Part shown: piece after piece, positions 134-28,358 of the stretch
Layout of the letters: each line of letters starts with the position of its first letter
How positions within the stretch are numbered: position 1 is the first letter of the stretch
From: a virus
Length of the DNA stretch: 28,358 nucleotides
IMG/VR virus record: IMGVR_UViG_3300038701_001082
Span: 1-28,358 of that record
Direction: 5' to 3' (one strand)
Position numbers and translations under genes: made by a program
Notes under the pieces: model-generated
What the model saw: only the letters and a program-made list of their open reading frames with translations
What the model was told of the DNA's origin: nothing
Database searches by the model: none

Positions 134-982
134 TTATACCGCCTCCGCTTCGAGGATGGCATTGCCGATCAGTTCAGGGATTTGGGGAACTACGGCGTTT
201 CCCAGGGCTTTAAGTCGGTGTGCCCGATGGGGAACCCCATTAGCCACTCGACCCACGGCGGGTTCAGTGCGCCAGATTCCGGCGACACGACCATGGAAAG
301 CATCAATTGCTTGCCCTTGGATAAGCGGCGTTGGATTGACGGGTTCGAGAGGTTGCCCCTGTCCCTGTCGTCCCCCGCTTGCGGTGTCGGCCATAGCGCC
401 CGCGCCACTTCCCGCTCCAAGTTCGGGAATTTGGCCTTCGCAGTGTTTTCTGTAAAGTTCGCCGCCATCGCACTGCAACTGCGTGGGGTAGGCCATAATC
501 CAGATTCGGTCCCTGCGGTGAGGTGCGCCAACGTAGGAAGCTGGTATGCAGTGCCACTCCGCATCATACCAGAGCGAGGCCAAGGTTCCGAGAACGTCTG
601 CAAGCCCTCGACTAAGCAGTGCTGCGACGTTTTCCAAGATAACGTATCGGGGTGCCAGTTCGCTAATGAGACGGGCGATTTCGTAAAACAGGCCGCTTCG
701 CTCGCCTTCAAGGCCTGCACCTTTTCCGGCGAAACTAATGTCTTGGCAGGGGAACCCTCCTGTGATGACATCAACGGCAATTCCATCGGCAGCAAGTTGC
801 TCTGCGGTAAGCTCTCGCACGTCTCGGTAGCAGGGCACGTCTGGCCAGTGCTTTGCGAGGACTTTGCGAGGGAACTCTTCGATTTCACAGAATGCGACGG
901 TTTCAAATCCGCCTGTTCGTTCAAGGCCAAGGCTGAAACCTCCTATTCCAGAGAAAAGATCAAGGACGCGCAGCTTACTCAC
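134..982 (-). CDS. C5-cytosine-specific DNA methyltransferase (Dcm-like)
   Basis: A 282-residue enzyme that would transfer a methyl group from S-adenosylmethionine to carbon 5 of cytosine in a specific DNA site; in phages this usually protects against host restriction. Motif I (DLFSGIGGFSLGL) is near residues 8-20. Motif IV holds the catalytic PC pair at 78-79 (GGFPCQDIS). ENV is at 117-119, the RRDRIWI motif near 156-162, and the motif IX/X end (RVANG, then GNAVVPQ) near 245-267. All core motifs are intact, so it should be active. The target-recognition stretch is short (about 85 residues). The GTG start overlaps the stop of the upstream 44-aa gene by 4 nt. A second long frame lies wholly inside this gene. 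The recognition site cannot be predicted. Confidence 0.95.
   Translation of the reverse strand: MSKLRVLDLFSGIGGFSLGLERTGGFETVAFCEIEEFPRKVLAKHWPDVPCYRDVRELTAEQLAADGIAVDVITGGFPCQDISFAGKGAGLEGERSGLFYEIARLISELAPRYVILENVAALLSRGLADVLGTLASLWYDAEWHCIPASYVGAPHRRDRIWIMAYPTQLQCDGGELYRKHCEGQIPELGAGSGAGAMADTASGGRQGQGQPLEPVNPTPLIQGQAIDAFHGRVAGIWRTEPAVGRVANGVPHRAHRLKALGNAVVPQIPELIGNAILEAEAV
190..930 (-). CDS. Nested overlapping gene inside the methyltransferase (+1 frame)
   Basis: A 246-codon frame lies entirely inside the methyltransferase, same strand, shifted +1. It reads like a protein: a Ser/Pro-rich start, DTLSWKTSQ near 95-103, WPRSGMMRSG near 117-126, two WPTP motifs near 146-149 and 180-183, and a C-terminal WVEWLMGFPIG near 226-236. 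I recognise this motif series from separately annotated phage proteins beside or within C5-methyltransferases; that is memory, not a search. The start is uncertain: the frame opens at TTG, the first ATG is residue 49, and no strong ribosome site is visible. It could be a true dual-coded protein or a frame that stays recognisable only because the methyltransferase is conserved. Function unknown. Confidence 0.5.
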   Translation of the reverse strand: MALNEQADLKPSHSVKSKSSLAKSSQSTGQTCPATETCESLPQSNLLPMELPLMSSQEGSPAKTLVSPEKVQALKASEAACFTKSPVSLANWHPDTLSWKTSQHCLVEGLQTFSEPWPRSGMMRSGTAYQLPTLAHLTAGTESGLWPTPRSCSAMAANFTENTAKAKFPNLEREVARALWPTPQAGDDRDRGNLSNPSIQRRLSKGKQLMLSMVVSPESGALNPPWVEWLMGFPIGHTDLKPWETP

Positions 983-5259: not shown

Positions 5260-5432
5260 CAGCGCCTGCCCGTTTCAAGCAATCGGATATAAAGCGCGCA
5301 GCAGCCGGTGTAGTTGCTGCGGGGCTTTCGATTGCGCGGGTGGAGATAGACTCAAGCGGTAAAATCGTCATTATTCCCGGCAAACCAACCGTAGCGCCAA
5401 GGAATGATAACGAGTGGGAAGACCTCGAATGA
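5256..5432 (+). CDS. 58-aa protein translationally coupled to the integrase
   Basis: A 58-residue protein whose GTG overlaps the previous stop and whose TGA overlaps the integrase ATG. The core reads DIKRAAAGVVAAGLSIARVEID followed by SGKIVIIPGKP. I recognise this as a small protein that very often sits directly upstream of integrases in alphaproteobacterial prophages; its role is not established to my knowledge. A short helix followed by two strands would fit a small DNA-binding fold, so a recombination directionality role is plausible, but this is inference. Confidence 0.72.
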   Translation: MTAPARFKQSDIKRAAAGVVAAGLSIARVEIDSSGKIVIIPGKPTVAPRNDNEWEDLE

Positions 5433-6463
5433 GCAAGACGCTGCCAAAATATGCCAGCGCGTTTGTCGATAATCGCGGCAAGCAGCGCGTGCGACTGCGG
5501 CGGACAGGATGGAAAACGCACTATGTGCAAAGCCCACTTGCAAGCCCTGAATTTACGCAAGAATATCACGATTGGCTTGAGAATGGCCGCGTCGCTGCAG
5601 GGCAGGAAAAGGTTATCCCGCGTAGCTTTGACGATCTGATTGCGCGCTTTTACCAGTCAAACGACTTTGCCGAATTGTCGGAAGTCACCCGCAAAACCTA
5701 CAGGGGCGAACTGGAACGCTTTCGGGCCAAGTATGGGGAGCGCAGCGCAGCAACCATTCAAGCGCGCCACATTGCCAACCTACTTGCACAGATGAGCGAC
5801 ACGCCAAGCGCGGCGAACAACCTGCGCAAACGGCTTGGGCAGTTGTTCAATCTGGCAATCTTTTTGAATTGGCGCGCTGATAATCCTGCCAAATCCGTTC
5901 GGGCACTTAAGACACCGAGCGGCGGCTACAAAACGTGGCAGGAGCCTCAGATTGCCATATACGAGGCCGCGCACCCTATCGGCACCAAGGCCCGCCTTTT
6001 GTTTGACTTGGCGCTCTACACGGCTCAGCGGCGCTCAGACCTAGCAGTCATGGGGCCGCAGCATATCGAAAAGGGGCGCATTCGTGTGCGTCAGATTAAA
6101 ACGTCCAAGACGCTGTTAATCCCGATCCATCCGAATTTGGCCAAAAGCATTGCCGCAACCGAGACGGGACACTTTGCTTTTGTGGCGACCATGCGCGGCA
6201 CGGCATACACCAAGGAAAGCTTGGGCAATTGGTTCGGGGACCAATGCGCGGAATTGGACCTGCATGGATATAGCCTGCATGGATTACGCAAGGCCGCGTC
6301 ACGCCGCATGGCGGAAGTCGGATTGTCCAATCAGCTTATCAAGTCGATCACCGGCCACGTTACGGACTCGGAGGTATCGCGCTACACGCGGGATGCCGAG
6401 CAGCAAGTTATGGCCGATAAGGCAATGGCGCATTTGGCTAGCGCAGGAAAGGCATTTGGCTAG
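5429..6463 (+). CDS. int: Tyrosine-recombinase integrase
   Basis: A 344-residue site-specific recombinase that would insert and excise the phage genome. The N-terminal third holds a basic arm-binding region and a SAM-like core-binding domain (residues about 65-150). The catalytic domain carries TAQRRSDL with the first catalytic Arg near 201, HGLRKAAS with His 284 and Arg 287, TGHVT with His 310, and the nucleophile Tyr 319 in SRYTRDAE. All catalytic residues are present. The chosen ATG overlaps the stop of the upstream 58-aa gene; a GTG five codons earlier is possible. The gene lies far from the repressor, at the end of a run of small early genes. Repeated 10-mers start inside its last codons and continue downstream. 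Confidence 0.95.
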   Translation: MSKTLPKYASAFVDNRGKQRVRLRRTGWKTHYVQSPLASPEFTQEYHDWLENGRVAAGQEKVIPRSFDDLIARFYQSNDFAELSEVTRKTYRGELERFRAKYGERSAATIQARHIANLLAQMSDTPSAANNLRKRLGQLFNLAIFLNWRADNPAKSVRALKTPSGGYKTWQEPQIAIYEAAHPIGTKARLLFDLALYTAQRRSDLAVMGPQHIEKGRIRVRQIKTSKTLLIPIHPNLAKSIAATETGHFAFVATMRGTAYTKESLGNWFGDQCAELDLHGYSLHGLRKAASRRMAEVGLSNQLIKSITGHVTDSEVSRYTRDAEQQVMADKAMAHLASAGKAFG

Positions 6464-9556: not shown

Positions 9557-9768
9557 TATTCGTCGCCTTGGCGAAGCTTTTCCCACCCTCGAAGGCCATA
9601 AACAGCCGCAACAAAGGCAAGCAAAACGCCGCGCACCGCGCTATCCATGGGAAAGCCGAACCAATCGCAAAAGAACACCCACGCTGTGCCGGGGATGCAC
9701 ACCCACCTCAAAAGCGGACGAGGCAGGCTTTCGTAAAGCTGCCAGACTTTGGATAGGTCGAACGTCAC
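9556..9768 (-). CDS. Small membrane protein, candidate holin
   Basis: A 70-residue protein with two hydrophobic segments (about 20-38, rich in Trp/Phe, and 43-58, GVLLAFVAAVYG), an acidic start and a charged C-terminal tail (RGWEKLRQGDE). Size, two segments and position directly after the endolysin fit a class II holin, which would form the hole that releases or triggers the lysin. Other small membrane proteins in this block (10541-10813, 10798-11115) are alternatives. Its ATG overlaps the endolysin stop. Confidence 0.6.
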   Translation of the reverse strand: MTFDLSKVWQLYESLPRPLLRWVCIPGTAWVFFCDWFGFPMDSAVRGVLLAFVAAVYGLRGWEKLRQGDE

Positions 9769-10544
9769 GCCAACCGCTCCCGCCGCAGCAATTCCGCGAC
9801 CAGCTTGTTGAACTTGCGCCGCCTGTCAGCCAGCCCAATAAGCCCGCCGTTGATGCGCCGCGTCTCGTCCTCGATGCCGGGACTATCCGCAAGGCGGTTA
9901 ATGCCGTTGCGCGTCCAGAACCACGCCGCCGCTGCAACGCTGCCATCGATGCTGTTTTCGATGTAGGATGCCGCTTGCTCGGCGGTCTTGCCGATGGTCT
10001 TGCCGAACTCTGCGTGATTGGCGCGGCCCGTCAACTGGATTGCGCCATTGCCACGAAAGCGCCAGCCATCGCCGCTTTGCGGTGTGCCGTTGCCCATCCG
10101 GTTCGCGTAAACCTCATTGGCAATCGCCACGGGCTTGCGGTGGAGTGCCCGCGCTTTAGCCCGTCCCGCCGCACCGGAAAAGCGCGAAGGCCACACTTGG
10201 CGCAGTCGCTTGGCGCTGTAATTCATATTCTCGCGCCCGCCGACCTTAAACCCGCCTTCGTGGGCAAGCGTGGTGATGAACGCGGCAATGCGGCGGATGG
10301 TGATTATGCCGTGTTCGCGGCACGCCCGCTTGATCGGCTCCACCCAAGACTGCGTGGCATTGGGCGACACAAGCTTGAGCAAGCTTAGGTCAATCGCGCT
10401 AATCGGAAAGCCGTCCGGTGCGACAAATTCGGAGGCAGCGGGCACTTCACCGAACTGCACGCCCTTTATCATGTCGCGCTCGTATTGCGTCTCGACCTCG
10501 CGGCGCAGCTTGAACGCCTTTTGCAGGATGGTTTTGAGTGTCAT
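9765..10544 (-). CDS. Endolysin, glycoside hydrolase family 19
   Basis: A 259-residue muralytic enzyme. Residues from about 60 to the end match GH19 (chitinase/lysozyme-like): AAFITTLAHEGGF with the likely catalytic Glu 96, NMNYSAKRLRQVWPSRF, YANRMGNG, and GWRFRGNGAIQLTGRANH. It would cut the glycan chains of peptidoglycan. About 55 residues before the catalytic part are unusual: helical and charged (LRREVETQYERDM), without a signal peptide, so export would depend on the holin. The extension is not a cell-wall domain that I recognise. The ATG overlaps the preceding stop. Confidence 0.92.
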   Translation of the reverse strand: MTLKTILQKAFKLRREVETQYERDMIKGVQFGEVPAASEFVAPDGFPISAIDLSLLKLVSPNATQSWVEPIKRACREHGIITIRRIAAFITTLAHEGGFKVGGRENMNYSAKRLRQVWPSRFSGAAGRAKARALHRKPVAIANEVYANRMGNGTPQSGDGWRFRGNGAIQLTGRANHAEFGKTIGKTAEQAASYIENSIDGSVAAAAWFWTRNGINRLADSPGIEDETRRINGGLIGLADRRRKFNKLVAELLRRERLA

Positions 10545-26186: not shown

Positions 26187-26376
26187 TTTGAGCCTTCCAA
26201 TGCGCCACTTTTCCAATATCAGCCATCAATCTATCATAGCGCCTCTGCCAACTTTTCCGCATCGCGTCGGGTATAGGGGTTTGGGAGGTGTTGACATCCT
26301 CAAACACTTGTAAAAAGAGCGCATCGTCTGGTGATATACGAACCATTGCTAAGTCGTGCTGGTAAAAATCAATCAT
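26179..26376 (-). CDS. 65-aa small protein coupled to the portal gene
   Basis: A 65-residue protein (MIDFYQHDLAMVRISPDDALFL, then a basic helical end MRKSWQRRYDRLMADIGKV). Its ATG overlaps the portal stop (ATGA), with a G-rich Shine-Dalgarno about 9 nt upstream inside the end of the portal gene. No family is recognised. Coupling to the portal gene suggests a minor head protein. Confidence 0.66.
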   Translation of the reverse strand: MIDFYQHDLAMVRISPDDALFLQVFEDVNTSQTPIPDAMRKSWQRRYDRLMADIGKVAHWKAQNA

Positions 26377-28358
26377 GACGCAACACTCCCCCCCATCCGT
26401 TGGTTTGTCAGGTTGGCTTTGTTCGTCATTTCAAACTGCGTTTTCATTGCAGCCAAACGGGCTTCCGTCTCGGCACGATATGCCGCCAGATCAAGCTGCC
26501 CAGTCAACTGCGCTGTCTCAAGTTCAAGCTTGCGCTCAAGTTCAAACATCCGAAGCTGCGCATCAAACTGCGCTTGCTCGGTCTTGCGCTTCTGCTCCAT
26601 TTGAACCTGCATCAATTCAGGCGACGGCTCTTGCTCCTGCTGCTGCATACGCTGCGCAACCTCGGGATCATCGGGGTCAAACATAATATCCGAACCACGG
26701 CCAAGGTCGTAATCGCGCATAATGGCATCCATCTGGTTATACAGATGCTCCATTCCCGAAACGCCCTCGGTAATCATTTCACGCAGCGGCAACAGAAGCC
26801 CCAGACGGGCATTAAGGCGCTTGTCCTTTGCGCCGTTGCCCAGACCAACGCGCACAATCATATTCATGCTCTCAGGCCACTGTGTGGGATCAACCGTCTT
26901 GTATTTGCCATCCACCTTGATCTGGAACGGCTCGCCCTCGACCCGCACCATACGGTAAAGCTTCATCAGCGCATTGCCGAACGCATTGGCAAGGTTGCGC
27001 GCCATAAACTCCTGCAACACCTCGCCCTTGGCTTCGCGGCCTTGGAACTCGGTAGCGGTCATGTTGTTAAGCGCATCCTCGCTTGCCACAGGAACATTGC
27101 GCCCAGAACCCGAACGCGCCTCTTTCTCGCGGCTGAACCACTCCATCGCCTGCAAGGACTGCCCAAGGTTGAAGTTGCCCGTGTAAGGCGTGACAGCGCC
27201 CGCAGTGCGTGTGCGGATGGGCGAACCGGGAATAGGGTTGAGAATGTCGTCTAGCGTTTCATCGCTAGAGCCATCCATAGAAACAATCGGACGCGGGTTA
27301 TTCGCCGTTACCATGCCGTCCATCATCTGACGGGCAAGCAGGCTGCGGCCATATTGAATGTCCATCACCTTATCAGCCAGAGAGTAGCCAATCATTCGGT
27401 GCGGACGCGGGAACGGGCAATAGATCGAAAAAGGCTGCTCATCTACGGTTTCAACCGCAAGCTCATTTTCTTCATACATTGGCTCGCCATCGCGGCCCAA
27501 AACTTGCTGCCCGAATTCATCAAGCTGAGGCTCGCCCTGATAGCGCAGTATTTCATTGCCGACGCGGCACACCTTGATAAGTTCGGCAATCCCGTCGTCG
27601 TCATAGTCAAGCCGCGCATAGCCTTCGCAAAACTCGACTTTGGTCAATTCCTCGCTTGGCTCGTTGGCGCTGTATTGATCGAGCGTTTCGCTTTCGCTCT
27701 CGCTTTCAACGTCCTGCACATAACCCGGCAGCGAATACACCTGCTCACGCTCAAAACCCATCGCCACAAGTTCGGATCGGGTCTTAGGCTGTGCGTGCTC
27801 GACATAAGCGCAAGTCTCTACATCGCGGCCATTCGGCGTAAACCGGAATTCGTGCGAAGGAACGGAAACCACGTTCCACTGCGTGTCCTGGCGCTCGTTT
27901 TTGATAAGCACCTTTGCCATTGCGACAGGCTGCTGTGTGGCTTCGTCAAAAGCCTCGAACTCGCGAACGTCCTCCACATCGCCCGAGGCCATAATCAACG
28001 GCAGACCCTCGAGCGGCACCACCTGCCACTCACGAGAAACCCGCTCGGTGACGATCTTGCAGGACTTGAAAATGCCAATCTTGCGCAGGTTCCCGTCTTG
28101 CAAAACATCGCTCAGCGTATTGTCGCCGCCATTGCGCATAAAGTTGTAATCAAGCGCCGTGGTTGCCTCGTCAGCAAAAGGCTCGTCTTCTTCGTTCGTG
28201 GCTTCAAATTCAACCGTGCGATCACCCGAGACAAACATACGCAAGATGTTGGCGTTTGTGTCGTCAAGAACCTCTTGGACATCAGGCAGGACAATCTGCG
28301 AACGGCCTTCAATTTCGTTACCGAACGGCTGCGCTTCATAATAAGAAAAAGCGGCCTC
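26373..28358 (-). CDS. Portal protein (P22/SU10-type), start beyond the right edge
   Basis: 661 codons are visible and the frame is open to the last base, so the N-terminus is missing. The visible start reads EAAFSYYEAQPFGNEIEGRS, then IVLPDVQEV, a motif of P22-like portal proteins that lies well upstream of the first internal ATG (28244); that ATG is therefore not the true start. Later come FCEGYARLDYDDDGIAEL, RPHRMIGYSLADKVMDIQYGRS and GREAKGEVLQEFMARN. The C-terminal 90 residues form a Gln/Glu-rich coiled coil, like a P22-type barrel. Twelve copies would make the DNA channel and bind the terminase, whose genes should lie to the right. Confidence 0.93.
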   Translation of the reverse strand, partial: EAAFSYYEAQPFGNEIEGRSQIVLPDVQEVLDDTNANILRMFVSGDRTVEFEATNEEDEPFADEATTALDYNFMRNGGDNTLSDVLQDGNLRKIGIFKSCKIVTERVSREWQVVPLEGLPLIMASGDVEDVREFEAFDEATQQPVAMAKVLIKNERQDTQWNVVSVPSHEFRFTPNGRDVETCAYVEHAQPKTRSELVAMGFEREQVYSLPGYVQDVESESESETLDQYSANEPSEELTKVEFCEGYARLDYDDDGIAELIKVCRVGNEILRYQGEPQLDEFGQQVLGRDGEPMYEENELAVETVDEQPFSIYCPFPRPHRMIGYSLADKVMDIQYGRSLLARQMMDGMVTANNPRPIVSMDGSSDETLDDILNPIPGSPIRTRTAGAVTPYTGNFNLGQSLQAMEWFSREKEARSGSGRNVPVASEDALNNMTATEFQGREAKGEVLQEFMARNLANAFGNALMKLYRMVRVEGEPFQIKVDGKYKTVDPTQWPESMNMIVRVGLGNGAKDKRLNARLGLLLPLREMITEGVSGMEHLYNQMDAIMRDYDLGRGSDIMFDPDDPEVAQRMQQQEQEPSPELMQVQMEQKRKTEQAQFDAQLRMFELERKLELETAQLTGQLDLAAYRAETEARLAAMKTQFEMTNKANLTNQRMGGSVAS

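Follow-up and report, generated by a model that had tools for sequence, protein, structure and literature searches.

A phage cytosine-5 DNA methyltransferase very likely encoded as two subunits in two reading frames of one DNA stretch

The C5-methyltransferase M.EcoHK31I (YGGCCR) naturally consists of two polypeptides (Lee, Kam and Shaw 1995, summarised in PMC3404938), of which the large chain carries motifs I-VIII and X together with the predicted TRD, and the small chain carries motif IX (PMC3404938). The small chain of this enzyme, about 176 aa long, is read from a different frame within the gene for the large one. M.AquI (CYCGRG) is a C5-methyltransferase split over two genes (PMC3404938). 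Multispecific C5-methyltransferases with tandem TRDs are described for Bacillus phages (cited in PMC8936443), and M.BatI, an orphan methyltransferase of a B. anthracis prophage, is reported to be 20-30% smaller than usual, to have an unusually short TRD and to be active in E. coli when its gene alone is expressed (PMC8936443). Papers on nested phage methyltransferases were not found in the literature searched.

The locus described here, in which a frame termed beta lies inside a methyltransferase frame termed alpha, very likely encodes a two-subunit phage cytosine-5 DNA methyltransferase in two frames of one DNA stretch; the assembly and activity of this enzyme are inferred. In the proposed arrangement alpha would be the catalytic, AdoMet-binding large domain, with motifs I-VIII and, at its C-terminus, motif X, and beta, which lies in the +1 frame within alpha and most likely has an internal start, would be the small DNA-reading domain, with tandem TRD modules followed by motif IX. 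The two chains are inferred to assemble into one complete enzyme, in which beta would pick the target sequence and alpha would transfer the methyl group. Both the target sequence and the biological role, probably the shielding of phage DNA from host restriction, are inferences.

The locus and the contents of its two frames

The window (the whole stretch of DNA that was analysed) is the 28,358-base virus record IMGVR_UViG_3300038701_001082 of IMG/VR, and the locus occupies the minus strand at the left end. Elsewhere in the window, a tyrosine integrase is encoded at 5414-6463 on the plus strand (Pfam Phage_integrase, 1.1e-15) and an SU10-type portal protein at 26373-28244 on the minus strand (4.9e-112), from which the source is inferred to be a temperate tailed phage. 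A weak likeness to class I chitinases was seen at 9765-10544 on the minus strand (Glyco_hydro_19, E 0.003, below cut-off); the product is likely a phage lysin, with only this sub-threshold match in support.

The alpha frame (134-982, minus strand), read as the catalytic chain of a C5-cytosine methyltransferase, is an ORF of 282 aa with a GTG start. It matches the Pfam family DNA_methylase (PF00145) at 2.8e-43 and phrog_363 at 4.5e-80, and meets the criterion for a C5-methyltransferase core, namely the Pfam catalytic core with the PCQ and ENV motifs. Motifs I-VIII are present, among them, as located in the sequence and all on the minus strand, motif I (DLFSGIGG, 938-961), motif IV with the catalytic Cys (GGFPCQ, 743-760), motif VI (ILENV, 626-640) and motif VIII (GAPHRRDRIW, 500-529), at which the frame of conservation changes; motif X (ALGNAVVPQ, 182-208, minus strand) was recognised by eye. 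Only positions 2-166 of the 324 in the Pfam profile are covered, because the TRD and motif IX are absent from the alpha frame. The criterion for an enzyme of the monomeric kind, a TRD and motif IX in one chain with motifs I-VIII, is not met; these two elements lie in the +1 frame.

The longest nested frame (190-930, minus strand, +1 relative to alpha) comprises 246 codons from a TTG and ends with the stop at 192-190; the part most likely translated (190-711, minus strand) is inferred to be 173 aa from TTG 711. The profile match of beta is to phrog_1008 (3.8e-27), a family of phage proteins that bears the label DNA methyltransferase, and among relatives the same family is matched by gp83 of L004 (2.2e-91) and gp5 of L005 (6.4e-42). 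Beta alone matched no family in Pfam and NCBIfam, and gave no direct sequence match to PDB chains. It supplies two WPTP-type TRD modules, WPTPRSCSAMAANFTENTAKAKFPNLEREVARAL (module 1, 394-495, minus strand) and WPTPQAGDDRDRGNLSNPSIQRRLSKGKQLMLSMVVSPESGA (module 2, 268-393, minus strand, where conservation of beta exceeds that of alpha), followed by LNPPWVEWLMGFPIG (223-267, minus strand), the counterpart of M.HhaI motif IX. The motif IX string LNPxWVEWLMGxP lies in the +1 frame in 265 of the 267 loci with a recognisable copy, which come from phages, plasmids and many bacterial phyla, and in most loci motif X is found in the alpha frame 21 codons past it. The standard string is missing in about 60 loci; in several of these, inspection by eye found degenerate forms in beta. 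Judged from sequence alone, beta is very likely the TRD-IX subunit of the methyltransferase.

A preliminary description of the locus had placed a 246-codon +1 frame wholly within an intact methyltransferase (ORF 134-982, minus strand). The nesting held, and all motifs quoted for the nested frame are present: DTLSWKTSQ (648-622), WPRSGMMRSG (582-553), WPTP at 495 and 393, and the motif IX segment (267-223). The claim that the methyltransferase is intact failed, the alpha frame being without TRD and motif IX. A further claim, that the bases encoding alpha from RVANG to GNAVVPQ encode WVEWLMGFPIG in the other frame, held in part: WVEWLMGFPIG overlaps RVANGVPHR (250-224) only, and GNAVVPQ (208-182) lies downstream of it, with an overlap limited to the last beta codons.

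Selection on both frames

Viral contigs were searched for relatives with alpha alone, so that beta was not chosen for, which gave 65 distinct loci; the chance expectation for beta was obtained by resampling alpha codons among synonyms from PCQ to motif X. Beta was open in 61 of the 65 loci (4.6 expected), with a mean of 0.06 stops against 3.0 expected; the third frame of the same loci contained 8.3 stops (7.3 expected) and was open in none. When beta was kept and its codons were resampled in the reverse test, alpha was open from motif VIII to IX in 216 of 219 cases against 19.1 expected, and the third frame was near expectation here too.

From PCQ to motif VIII the identity is 0.70 for alpha and 0.47 for beta. 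From motif VIII to motif X the alignment score of beta is the higher one in 98.7% of 3655 pairs, and the identity is 0.42 for beta, 0.37 for alpha and 0.35 for the third frame, which alpha barely exceeds. In 40 independent close pairs, the differences at alpha positions 1, 2 and 3 numbered 656, 311 and 1534 in the catalytic part and 699, 256 and 235 between motifs VIII and X (the TRD part); position 1 of alpha coincides with position 3 of beta, so the latter distribution is the one that coding in the beta frame produces.

Alpha third positions change at a rate of 0.29-0.39 up to a point about 60 codons short of the end of motif VIII, at 0.165-0.19 from 60 to 15 codons before that end and at 0.251 in the last 15 codons up to it; the rate is 0.05-0.13 after motif VIII and returns to 0.31 at motif X, where substitutions again fall at alpha third positions. 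The order along the DNA is therefore alpha coding, double coding, beta coding with alpha merely open, and alpha coding once more. In the window, third-position rates place the stretch under double selection at 500-690 (minus strand), where alpha motifs VI-VIII lie over the beta N-terminus with DTLSWKTSQ and WPRSGMMRSG. Stop avoidance, conservation and substitution phase agree that both frames are maintained by selection. That beta is a translated, selected protein is very likely, as inferred without proteomic, ribosome-profiling or biochemical data.

Change at alpha third positions also dips (0.15-0.27) at PCQ-26 to PCQ-7, corresponding to about 770-838 in the window. This dip lies upstream of the likely beta start, with a free stretch between, and perhaps reflects an upstream signal or codon bias.

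TRD modules, rearranged relatives and structure models

Units opening with (W/L)PTP make up the beta frame between motifs VIII and IX; 275 of 282 distinct loci have one to five such units, two being the commonest number and the number in the window. A given type of unit turns up at different positions and beside different units; the RSCSAMAA type, for one, has 24 copies. Module 1 of the window belongs to a module cluster with 24 copies at varying positions and module 2 to a large cluster; the largest unit cluster (179 units) was probably over-merged by single linkage. TRD modules are reassorted among relatives. By analogy with the multispecific Bacillus phage enzymes, the array may be read as shuffled TRDs, the targets of the modules being unknown, and the balance tips slightly towards several modules giving several targets.

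In the actinophages Colucci, Wildflower and Taquarus, alpha ends past motif VIII, and what follows in the +1 frame is annotated as a gene of its own. The actinophage homologues of beta are separate downstream genes (gp83 of L004, gp5 of L005 and gp77 of L335), which contain the PTP modules (TRD), motif IX and motif X. In the prophage prophiGD91-2 (a Mycobacterium phage), gp27 (989-2140) is a single chain that contains motifs I-VIII, PTP modules, and motifs IX and X, matching phrog_1008, the beta family, over residues 188-381 (4.3e-58) and phrog_116 over residues 3-379 (1.6e-69). It is possible, as inferred from sequence alone, that an indel re-fused a formerly split enzyme in this phage. A search of plasmids with beta returned seven records only, none of them from E. 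coli.

The two exceptions to a motif IX in the +1 frame are Megaera plasmids from separate strains, L170 (1664-2686) and L172 (1164-2189). Their alpha frame contains both IX and X, and their +1 frame holds PTP modules only and stops before motif IX. The L170 chain covers positions 2-321 of the 324 in the Pfam profile. Its equivalent of the window's motif IX region, LNPDWVEWLMGYPISWTD...GNAVV, aligns with M.HhaI 270-314, KLHPRECARVMGYPDSY...GNSVV, the score of this segment alone being weak; the alignment puts LNPDWVEWLMGYPISW on M.HhaI KLHPRECARVMGYPDSY, which is motif IX. The boundaries vary among these arrangements, yet the two frames always sum to one complete methyltransferase, and the homologue of beta in the single-chain relatives is their TRD-IX half.

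Some details of individual relatives may be recorded here. In gp27 of prophiGD91-2 the later modules are in the main frame, but the first PTP-like one has stayed in the +1 frame, where a stop ends it. A Paenibacillus polymyxa plasmid (L168, 1256-2746) has a long alpha of about 496 aa, three PTP modules in the +1 frame and, in the same frame, two copies of motif IX, the second after a stop, an apparent duplication.

The AlphaFold2 model of beta alone (pLDDT 62, pTM 0.25) was not usable. For the relative L035, the DNA of which is readable as alpha motifs I-VIII and then beta, the joined chain was modelled by AlphaFold2 with a pTM of 0.78 and a pLDDT of 81.5; confidence is low for the first TRD part. 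Residues 1-266 of this model aligned to M.HhaI 12-294 (Z 22.1, rmsd 2.3, 201 residues); as the alignment extends to M.HhaI 294, the motif IX segment of L035 ends close to that of M.HhaI. The predicted structure is consistent with a two-frame enzyme, with most of the score coming from the catalytic domain.

Start of beta, rival explanations and known systems

Synonymous constraint sets in at about PCQ+18, directly downstream of several potential start codons grouped at PCQ+13 to +15. TTG 711 is alpha codon PCQ+13, and AAGG (720-723, minus strand), 8 nt before it, is a possible ribosome-binding site by consensus match only. A TTG occupies the equivalent place in 76 of 261 loci, 43 of those 76 with an SD-like site; no single start codon for beta is conserved across relatives. 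TTG 711 with AAGG is plausible as a start, with weak support, and an internal start near 711, inferred without experimental data, could as readily prove wrong as right. TTG 930 was rejected as a general start: the AGGAGG located 8 nt before it (939-944, minus strand), an alternative start signal, falls on conserved codons of alpha motif I (IGG), and most relatives lack this start.

The nested frame might be no more than a passive, untranslated shadow, cast in GC-rich DNA by a conserved methyltransferase, and in line with this the identity of beta is below that of alpha over motifs IV-VIII (0.47 versus 0.70) and long spurious ORFs are common in the window. However, past motif VIII it is beta that is conserved, with alpha at the level of the third frame (0.37 versus 0.35), substitutions gather at beta third positions, beta is also found apart from alpha, and the 61 open beta frames among 65 relatives compare with an expectation of 4.6; the shadow is all but excluded. 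Beta might alternatively be a separate regulator or inhibitor of the methyltransferase and not its recognition half; nesting would tie the dose of such a protein to that of the enzyme, and the modules of beta differ between relatives. Against this, beta corresponds in both order and position to the C-terminal half of single-chain methyltransferases, and the parts absent from the alpha frame are exactly those matched by beta, which leaves a regulator very unlikely.

A further rival retains the recognition half and dispenses with the internal start: programmed frameshifting near motif VIII would yield a chain with motifs I-VIII, TRD and IX beside full-length alpha. The exact switch of the conserved frame at motif VIII, the lack of a start codon common to all relatives and the confident overall model of the joined L035 chain all speak for it. 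Yet alpha-synonymous constraint starts about 60-70 codons before motif VIII, as if beta included residues upstream of the shift, N-terminal motifs of beta such as SSWRTSQ and SETWPRSGM are conserved, and no slippery site was identified, although without a systematic search. Frameshifting is regarded as unlikely and is not excluded.

The preferred reading remains a nested beta that completes alpha. The proposals of the preliminary description that both frames are selected and that the nested gene encodes a product working with or against the methyltransferase were, respectively, upheld and supported, translation being inferred and not shown; the latter is refined in that beta would be the missing half of the enzyme (TRD and motif IX) and not an extra regulator. 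None of the outcomes named there as refuting was borne out: constraint at alpha-synonymous sites is strong and not without excess, stops in the nested frame of relatives are rare and not frequent, and homologues occur outside the nested arrangement, as separate actinophage genes and, within one chain, in the prophiGD91-2 fusion.

Documented cases of full nesting with clear selection on both frames are rare in cellular and phage DNA; in this locus the reason for the nesting is visible, namely one enzyme split across two frames. In the records examined mostly alpha alone is annotated, and the recognition half, which would set the methylation target, is therefore missing from gene tables and target predictions. 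Hundreds of enzymes from phages and bacteria that are listed as single proteins are probably interlocked pairs. A bolder reading, towards which the evidence leans by a modest margin, is that a large, unrecognised share of the phage and prophage cytosine methyltransferases annotated as single are nested pairs and, jointly with this, that the specificity domain in the second frame is an array of interchangeable TRD cassettes. If this is true, cassette swaps would alter the methylation target of a phage while both frames stay open. Because the enzyme occurs among the relatives in nested, tandem, reshuffled and re-fused states, these hundreds of loci form a ready system for studying the origin and persistence of double-coded genes.

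Among the known systems, M.BatI is reported as short, TRD-poor and active from one gene, which is what a hidden nested beta would give; that it is another such case is a possibility and a lead only, its sequence not having been examined. The multispecific Bacillus phage enzymes likewise have several tandem TRD modules in a phage enzyme, but they are described as single coding sequences, whereas the modules of the window lie in the other reading frame. M.AquI is, like the window pair, one C5-methyltransferase split between motifs VIII and IX, and it is the actinophage loci L004, L005 and L335, with motif X on the second chain, that resemble it; it differs from the window in that its split lies inside the variable region and motif X is on the small chain, whereas in the window motif X is on alpha and beta is nested. 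By analogy, the window pair may work like M.EcoHK31I, the requirement for two chains being inferred and without sequence-homology data. The window pair meets the criterion of a large chain with motifs I-VIII and X and of motif IX on a small chain, and the inferred 173 aa of beta compare with about 176 aa for the small chain of M.EcoHK31I. The difference is that the predicted TRD of M.EcoHK31I is in the large chain (PMC3404938), whereas here the conserved TRD lies in beta, with one to about five modules across the loci.
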